Shown here in pieces: positions 36,201-37,767 of a stretch of DNA of 37,767 bases; the first letter of the stretch is position 1; each line of letters opens with the position of its first letter. Location: contig JAMOQG010000110.1 of the NCBI GenBank assembly GCA_027064135.1, forward strand, positions 1 to 37,767. The letters run 5' to 3'. The notes under the pieces were generated by a model, which did not search any database, was not told the origin of the DNA, and saw only the letters and a list, made by a program, of their open reading frames with translations. The translations under genes and the position numbers were made by a program. The DNA is from Peptostreptococcaceae bacterium. GTDB lineage: Bacteria > Bacillota > Clostridia > Peptostreptococcales > Acidaminobacteraceae.

Positions 36201-36410
36201 ATGAAATCTGGAATTCATCCTGAGTATACAGAAGTAGAAGTTCATTGCTCATGCGGGAATAGATTTACTACTAAGTCAACAAAAGGTTCAGACATAAGAT
36301 TAGATGTTTGTTCACAATGTCATCCTTATTACACTGGTGCTAAGAAATCAGGCGTAAAAGATGGAAGAGCTGAACTATTTAAAAAGAAATATGGAATGGA
36401 AGTTGAATAG
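36201..36410 (+). CDS. rpmE: Ribosomal protein bL31, zinc-binding type
   Basis: The 69-residue bL31 sits on the large subunit and helps bridge it to the small subunit. The zinc ligands are all present: C16-S-C18 and C37-S-Q-C40. This is therefore the zinc-containing form rather than the zinc-free paralogue used in zinc shortage. MKSGIHPEY and HPYYTGAKK are diagnostic. GAGGTGG precedes the ATG. It has its own promoter and a strong terminator, separating it from rho and tdk. Confidence 0.98.
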
Positions 36411-36420
36411 TAAAAGCATG

Positions 36421-36450
36421 ATAGGTTAGGTGATTCCTAACCTATTTTTT
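36421..36450 (+). terminator. Terminator of rpmE
   Basis: ATAGGTTAGG (36421-36430), loop TGATT, CCTAACCTAT (36436-36445), then T's to 36450: a perfect 10-bp stem. Confidence 0.93.
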
Positions 36451-36455
36451 GTATT

Positions 36456-36580
36456 GATTGATACTATTTAAGCAAAAATATATTATGTGGCTATGTTTAT
36501 ATAAAAAAATGTTGACTAATAGACCAAACGAAAAAAACTGAAAGGTTTTGGCGGGAATCGATTGATACTATTTAAACAAA
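36456..36580. repeat. 21-bp direct repeat pair in the tdk upstream region
   Basis: GATTGATACTATTTAAGCAAA (36456-36476 and 36560-36580) differs at one base between copies (AGC against AAC), with 83 bases between them. Each copy contains TTGATA. The first is followed at 17 bases by TATTAT (36481-36486), a plausible promoter; the second is followed at 16 bases by TAATAT. Read together, they may be duplicated promoters or operator iterons for tdk. The intervening stretch has a weak hairpin (CCAAAC at 36524-36529 with GTTTTGG at 36545-36551). Confidence 0.6.
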
Positions 36581-36677
36581 GAATAATATAAAGAATAATA
36601 TTATGTAATAATAATTAAATAGAATATATCTGATAGTAAAAAATAAATTTTTAGACTAAAAATGGTAACAATTTGAT

Positions 36678-36720
36678 AGATGTCTATATGGCATCTTTTG
36701 TTATTTAGAAATAACAAAAG
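36678..36720 (+). promoter_or_regulatory. Overlapping hairpins in the tdk leader
   Basis: Hairpin A: AGATGTC (36678-36684) with GGCATCT (36690-36696), followed by TTTGTTATTT, looks like a weak terminator. Hairpin B: CTTTTGTTATTT (36695-36706) with AAATAACAAAAG (36709-36720) is perfect over 12 bp and uses hairpin A's U-tract as its own 5' arm. The two overlap, so they may be alternative folds. Confidence 0.5.
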
Positions 36721-36754
36721 CTAGAGAAAATATGTATTATACATCGTGGGGAAT

Positions 36755-36788
36755 GGGGGTGAATACTACTTCTAAAGTAGTGGTTATG
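36755..36788 (+). promoter_or_regulatory. Shine-Dalgarno, hairpin and start codon of tdk
   Basis: GGGGGTGA (36755-36762) matches the 16S-complementary GGAGGTGA at 7 of 8 bases, but lies 23 bases from the ATG. A 7-bp hairpin, ACTACTT (36765-36771) loop CTA with AAGTAGT (36775-36781), fills the gap. Folding removes 17 bases and leaves about six between the Shine-Dalgarno and AUG 36786, the normal distance. Confidence 0.55.
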
Positions 36789-37391
36789 GCAAAATTATAT
36801 TTTAGATATGGTGCTATGAATTGCGGAAAATCAACAAATTTAATGCAAGTAGCATATAATTATAAAGAAAGAGGTATGAAATCAGTTATAATTAAACCTA
36901 TGGTTGATACTAAAGGGGCTGATTCGGTAGTTTCTAGATTGGGAATTAATAAGAAAATTGATATGCTTATTGATGATAGGATGAATGTTTTTAATGAGAT
37001 AAATAGAGATAATGAAAATGAAAAAATTGATTGTATTTTAGTTGATGAAGTTCAATTTTTTAAAGCAAATCAAATAGATCAACTTCTGATGATAGCTGTT
37101 AAGTTAAATATCCCTGTTATTGCATATGGTCTTAGAACTGATTTTAAAATGAATGGATTTGAAGGTTCCGAAAGATTACTTTTAATTGCACATACAATTG
37201 AAGAATTAAAAACAATTTGTAGATGTGGTAGAAAAGCTACGCTAAATGCTAGAAAAATTAATGGTAAATTTGTATCGGATGGAGATCAAGTAGCAATTGA
37301 TGGAGAAAATAAAGTGGAATATGAATCATTATGTAGTAATTGTTATTATAAATTAGTTTTAGATATAGGCAATTGCGAAACAGACTATTAA
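36786..37391 (+). CDS. tdk: Thymidine kinase
   Basis: Tdk phosphorylates thymidine to dTMP for salvage. The 201-residue protein has Walker A G9-AMNCG-K15-S16, the catalytic VDEVQF (D87, E88), AYGLRTDF, and a zinc site of four cysteines (C145, C147, C183, C186). The start at ATG 36786 gives MAKLYFRYGAMNCGKS, which lines up with the E. coli protein start (MAQLYF). In-frame ATG 36732, ATG 36753 and GTG 36759 would add up to 18 residues with no homology. The strong Shine-Dalgarno sits unusually far upstream with a hairpin between. The 375 bases between rpmE and the start hold the features listed separately and no other gene. A hairpin (37393-37417) follows the stop, without a clear T-tract. Confidence 0.95.
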   Translation: MAKLYFRYGAMNCGKSTNLMQVAYNYKERGMKSVIIKPMVDTKGADSVVSRLGINKKIDMLIDDRMNVFNEINRDNENEKIDCILVDEVQFFKANQIDQLLMIAVKLNIPVIAYGLRTDFKMNGFEGSERLLLIAHTIEELKTICRCGRKATLNARKINGKFVSDGDQVAIDGENKVEYESLCSNCYYKLVLDIGNCETDY

Positions 37392-37466
37392 CAACTTGTT
37401 ATTAAAATAAGCAAGTTAAACTAAGAATGCAGATATTAAGTTTTTCAAATATGAATAAGTAATAAA

Positions 37467-37767
37467 TTAAGCAACCGTTTTAAAAGCTCTTAAATGATCT
37501 ATGTGACCTGAATGAATCATAATAAGAACACCAATTAATTGAGTTATACCAGCAAGTAAAATTGTTGATTTAAGAGAAACTGTATTTCTAATTTGAGAAC
37601 TATTGATATTAAGATAATCTTTTAATTGTCCAATAGCTCTTTCACAAACAGTTCTAGTTTTATATAGATTTTGCCATTTTTCAGTATTTTGAGGTAAAGA
37701 AGTATTAAATCGATATTCTTCATCAATAGCAATATTAACTTTTCTACCATGAATGGCATCAGAACAA
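37467..37767 (-). mobile_element. Transposase, C-terminal part (runs off the right edge)
   Basis: Read on the minus strand, this gives 100 codons ending FKTVA-stop at plus 37467-37469. YKTRTVCERAIGQLK matches the IS4-type DDE signature Y-(2)-R-(3)-E-(6)-K exactly, so the Glu in VCERAI is the third catalytic carboxylate. A hydrophobic closing part follows (STILLAGITQLIGVLIMIHS). The frame is intact to the edge. The N-terminal portion lies beyond the window. Together with the left-edge fragment it suggests two same-strand copies of one element, but the two pieces do not overlap, so identity of the copies is not shown. It lies 75 bases beyond tdk. Confidence 0.85.

Follow-up and report, generated by a model that had tools for sequence, protein, structure and literature searches.

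The window analysed here, a stretch of 37,767 nt from Peptostreptococcaceae bacterium, an uncultured member of the Clostridia, is an entire contig of a 2.68-Mb draft genome, and its 3′ end carries rho, rpmE (L31) and tdk in that order. The tdk gene (forward strand, 36786..37391, opening at ATG 36786) encodes a type II thymidine kinase, residues 3–187 of which match the full Pfam TK domain (PF00265, E 2.2e-42, profile positions 2–176 of 176) and whose MAKLYF-type start is common to its relatives. An AT-rich stretch of ~340 nt separates it from the terminator-like hairpin of rpmE (36420–36446, located by terminator scan). Comparisons were made with Clostridiaceae bacterium HSG29 (referred to hereafter as the sister), the other genome of the same genus, which is represented in the collection searched by these two genomes alone; the coding regions of the two tdk genes are identical at 542 of 579 positions, and 14 of 54 fourfold sites differ.

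Several other elements surround the gene. The upstream stretch contains two copies of GATTGATACTATTTAA(G/A)CAAA, ~100 bases apart in 36456–36580, and the sister contig ends within the second. Closer to tdk, a forward-strand leader stretch that we read as promoter-like (36632..36702) includes a terminator-like hairpin (36678–36696 by terminator scan, AGATGTCTATATGGCATCT-TTTGTTATT) that is kept in the sister; this leader element is possibly an attenuator or a small-RNA start. Another perfect hairpin (CTTTTGTTATT / AATAACAAAAG, 36695–36720) is mostly missing from the aligned sister. A known RNA family in the leader was rejected, the sole Rfam match over 36390–37000 (n00280) scoring 21.2 bits against a gathering value of 65.2. 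At the other end of the gene, the final codons of tdk appear to have been invaded by an insertion sequence (37366–37767): after LVLD, the window reads IGNCETDY-stop and the sister N-stop, the DNA of this segment is found again at or near other contig ends (87–99% identical), and a DDE transposase-like fragment, slightly under the Pfam cut-off, follows as far as the contig end.

Distal Shine-Dalgarno sequence, spacer hairpin and start codon

The region directly before tdk combines a remote Shine-Dalgarno (SD) sequence with a palindrome that occupies the intervening space (all features on the forward strand). The SD, GGGGGTGA, lies at 36755..36762, leaving a linear gap of 23 nt (36763–36785) before the start codon at 36786–36788, as the preliminary description had proposed. 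Filling this gap is a perfect 7-bp hairpin with a 3-nt loop (36765–36781), its arms read directly from the sequence: a 5′ arm ACTACTT (36765..36771), a loop CTA (36772..36774) and a 3′ arm AAGTAGT (36775..36781), with a further U36764–G36782 pair possible at the base. Once folded, the gap is reduced to 6 nt; the earlier claim of a 7-bp, 3-base-loop hairpin that fits the gap and leaves about six bases thus holds in each particular.

The anti-SD tail used for duplex energies is the standard sequence. Against this assumed tail, which may not be the host's own 16S 3′ end (looked for in the assembly and not found), the distal SD pairs at −14.3 kcal/mol (best duplex in 36741–36763) and the best proximal SD of AUG 36786 at −1.5 kcal/mol. 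For 227 genes in 282 kb of the genome, the median proximal SD energy is −9.3 and the 95% quantile −2.83, values that are somewhat flattering because the best of several starts was taken per gene; 990 internal ATGs from the same genome sample have a median of −2.3. The SD had been described as too far away for normal use; the strong distal site is accompanied by no good one at the normal distance.

Alignment with the sister reveals that a conserved block begins at the SD. Positions 36756–36788 are the same at 32 of 33 sites (the lone change is in the loop, CTA to TTA), whereas the sequence directly 5′ (36703–36755) is kept at merely 23 of 53 positions, with a 19-nt gap in another alignment; farther 5′, conservation returns (70/73 over 36630–36702). 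The sister therefore keeps the SD (GGGGTGA), both hairpin arms, the spacing and the AUG of tdk. Since 370 of the 430 remaining aligned noncoding sites are also identical, the 14 unchanged stem bases are not improbable by themselves, and the stem, without any change between these two sequences, offers no compensatory change.

The same comparison informs on the choice of start codon. The tdk frame is open 5′ as far as ATG 36732, the start listed by the ORF tool, with another ATG at 36753; both are absent from the sister, which has in-frame stops, and we rejected both. AUG 36786, which the preliminary description had favored by homology, is upheld by the retention of SD, stem and AUG spacing in the sister, where the upstream ATGs are not retained. 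The tdk relatives listed likewise begin with a MAKLYF/MSKLYF-type peptide at the place of AUG 36786, and an SD is positioned for this start in 107 of 116 distinct tdk upstreams (the start in each relative was taken as the nearest start codon before the motif, and so is partly chosen by construction).

Predicted folding of the spacer

The 34-nt stretch 36755–36788 has a predicted energy of −8.0 kcal/mol (z −2.2), with 4 of 200 shuffles at least equally stable. The hairpin in isolation is of modest stability, at −4.4 kcal/mol, or −5.4 kcal/mol with the U–G pair, and its formation in the window depends on context: the six outer stem pairs have a probability of 0.71–0.79 in two shorter contexts, and the stem falls to ~0.45 at −120/+120 and ~0.22 at −120/+60. 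In the sister, the stem pairs reach 0.68–0.96 across four contexts. Forcing open the SD and AUG alone gives a best 60-nt fold that lacks the hairpin (−6.2 kcal/mol), in which the loop and 3′ arm pair instead with the early coding region.

Folding under a constraint that mimics 30S-bound mRNA, in which the SD and the opening 16 nt of coding sequence are both kept single-stranded, restores the hairpin: the six outer pairs have probabilities of 0.86–0.91 in the window and 0.83–0.92 in the sister (high values that depend on keeping those 16 nt unpaired along with the SD), and the innermost pair, beside the loop, is weaker in both (~0.6). These models suggest that the hairpin is likely folded on the ribosome and is not assured in free mRNA.

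The start codon itself is predicted to lie within a coding-region hairpin (−8.5 kcal/mol) that spans codons 1–12 (36784–36820) and pairs the AUG with codons 10–12; low AUG accessibility is predicted in other tdk mRNAs too.

Occurrence among tdk genes and a second case

We define the full arrangement as the lack of a proximal SD, a stem of at least 7 bp ending no more than 12 nt from the start, and a strong distal SD. A proximal SD is missing from nine of 96 distinct tdk upstreams. A strong distal SD is present in three of the nine, and each time a hairpin occupies the gap; these are the window, its sister and Tissierellia bacterium CSBr16_49. Counted by rows on the 96 upstreams, the association has a Fisher p of 0.0006, but this value counts window and sister, which belong to a single lineage, as separate cases, and it includes the window, which was selected on account of the feature; the three cases accordingly amount to two independent events. 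Adding the loci found using a covariance model brings the set to 116 distinct upstreams. Of these, 107 carry a proximal SD, and 0 of the 107 have a 7-bp hairpin that ends 12 nt or less from the start; such a hairpin is present in 3 of the nine without a proximal SD (two lineages).

Shuffling predicts 0.13 full arrangements per set of 116 upstreams, and shuffled versions of the window upstream produced one in 10 of 20,000 trials. Perfect stems of at least 7 bp are themselves found in 298 of 48,728 windows of 23 nt from the genome sample, and in 102 of 20,000 shuffles of the tdk spacer. The suggestion that such structured spacers are rare was right, though the mechanism is already known from T4.

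The CSBr16_49 gene is distant from that of the window, and its hairpin is unrelated in sequence although the order of SD, hairpin and AUG is alike. Its upstream reads AAAGGAG-A-[AUAUACUAG GAAA CUAGUAUAU]-GAGUGGGU-AUG, with a 9-bp stem closed by a GAAA loop and an SD–AUG gap of 31 nt that shortens to 9 nt when folded; holding the SD and 16 coding nt open, its nine pairs have probabilities of 0.85–1.0. In-frame stops lie within this hairpin and at its 3′ end, so it cannot be a coding N-terminal extension (a GTG two codons 5′ of the AUG is also open). Seven other genomes of the same family were searched, with a tdk match in five; in each of these five the proximal SD is ordinary and a hairpin of this kind is absent. 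Judged from these sequences, CSBr16_49 seems to have gained its hairpin on its own.

Beyond tdk, nothing rises above chance. With looser thresholds, 500 candidate ATGs from 218 genes of the genome sample gave two matches where 1.6 are expected, and of these tdk is the more extreme; given this lack of excess, we rejected widespread use of the arrangement in this genome. A wider survey of 619 genes (1577 ATGs) from other loci, the window left out, gave three matches against 1.8 expected, namely the sister tdk, the CSBr16_49 tdk and a run of A/U in a gene that has a different good start. Nor is the hairpin a repeated genomic element, being present once in the genome at up to three mismatches.

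The covariance model was searched against 391 genomes of the class, of which 62 matched, the window's own included. Among the model-found loci that were read, leaving aside that of the window, 29 of 29 carry a proximal SD and lack a bridging hairpin; ten further listed places comprise nine without tdk and one tdk without a hairpin, leaving no new hairpin-bridged tdk among these 39 places read, with 25 more on the list. This search is not a census, since the model favors close relatives, and its strict filters lose matches; a three-sequence alignment including CSBr16_49 was kept out of the model because it misplaced the hairpins.

A probable split ribosome binding site and its known counterparts

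We consider it probable that the ribosome binding site of tdk is split, with a hairpin as the bridge, in the manner described for T4 genes 25 and 38. On this model the 30S subunit would pair with the strong SD at 36755–36762 and the 17-nt hairpin (36765–36781) would remain folded between it and the start codon; so long as the hairpin stays folded, the 23-nt gap would act like one of ~6 nt, allowing AUG 36786 to reach the P site. The data show the sequence, the spacing, its conservation in two species, the independent CSBr16_49 case and the link with a missing proximal SD; from there we infer the function, including folding in the cell and use of the distal SD. The hairpin probably goes back to the insertion of a small palindrome between an ordinary SD and its AUG, which would have been tolerated and then retained because it folds.

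Three other readings were weighed against the bridged site. Translation could begin at GTG 36759..36761, in frame and inside the SD, which would add nine residues (MNTTSKVVV) before MAKLYF and make the palindrome a chance feature of coding sequence. Window and sister both retain this codon and an uninterrupted frame from it to AUG 36786, and the window has a moderate SD energy (−5.5) ahead of the codon; in the sister, however, this energy is poor (a mere −2.1), the lone difference between the two extensions replaces Ser with Phe, the SD of other tdk genes is placed for the MAKLYF/MSKLYF start (107/116), and the CSBr16_49 hairpin cannot be coding, so that we regard a GTG start as unlikely. The palindrome could also be fortuitous with AUG 36786 used without SD help, as weak-SD tdk genes do exist (six of the 116 upstreams lack both proximal SD and hairpin) and the loose surveys were not above chance; set against this, the distal SD is strong and conserved, the hairpin fits the gap exactly, and two lineages were found where shuffling predicts 0.13, making coincidence the least credible of the three.

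The last reading is regulatory, with the structure hiding both SD and AUG and lowering tdk translation until melted or bound, whether as the hairpin itself, as a longer form extended by GUGA/UUAU pairs, or by alternating with a pairing to the start of the coding region. Such outer pairs, which could cover the SD and AUG, are predicted in short contexts, where GUGA and the AU of the AUG have low unpaired probability; the alternative pairing with the early coding region exists, and a conserved hairpin lies upstream in the leader. The outer pairs are nevertheless weak A–U/G–U pairs (−7.2 kcal/mol with them versus −5.4 without), and pairs of this type are absent from the predicted CSBr16_49 fold; we therefore think a masking role very improbable.

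If the bridged reading of the window and CSBr16_49 is extended, bacterial tdk genes would have gained bridging hairpins on two or more occasions, making thymidine kinase synthesis fold-dependent, a broader proposal that we consider unlikely. Were it true, anything that melts the hairpin, such as heat, a helicase or competing pairing by the coding region, would turn translation down, the reverse of the usual RNA thermometer. Apart from that proposal, the window and CSBr16_49 sites would be convergent bacterial cases of a known mechanism rather than a new kind of mechanism; as independent events, they would show that bacteria tolerate SD–AUG insertions that fold. They would also urge caution on gene finders and ribosome binding site models that count linear spacing alone, as illustrated here by the listing of a start 54 nt upstream.

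Ordinary tdk genes of Clostridia and others (the 107/116 with a proximal SD) share the gene and start peptide, but unlike the window tdk they place the SD directly before the start and have no spacer hairpin. Within the open literature, covered as titles and abstract openings and mostly excluding subscription papers, we recognised no hairpin-bridged site in a bacterial chromosomal gene; the structure-bridged SD sites that we found in print are those of two T4 genes, as presented in a review (PMC3014915). There, intervening structure shortens the SD–AUG spacing from 22 to 5 nt in gene 38 and from 27 to 11 nt in gene 25, and destabilizing mutations lower initiation (PMC3014915). For gene 25, lacZ fusions together with DMS probing confirmed the structure, which is described as present in close T-even phages and absent from more distant ones (PMC3014915).

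The tdk site shares the features of this class: a strong SD that is too distant, none at the normal distance (−14.3 versus −1.5, with the assumed anti-SD), and a local structure predicted, in a context-dependent manner, to restore the spacing. The change from 23 to 6 nt closely parallels that of gene 38, a phage gene whose function was tested, whereas for tdk the function is proposed and the structure predicted. The likeness to gene 25, at the gene 26–25 junction, lies in both the shortening of the gap by structure and the limited spread among relatives; gene 25 is a phage gene with a reporter- and DMS-confirmed structure, and tdk a bacterial chromosomal gene with a predicted one.
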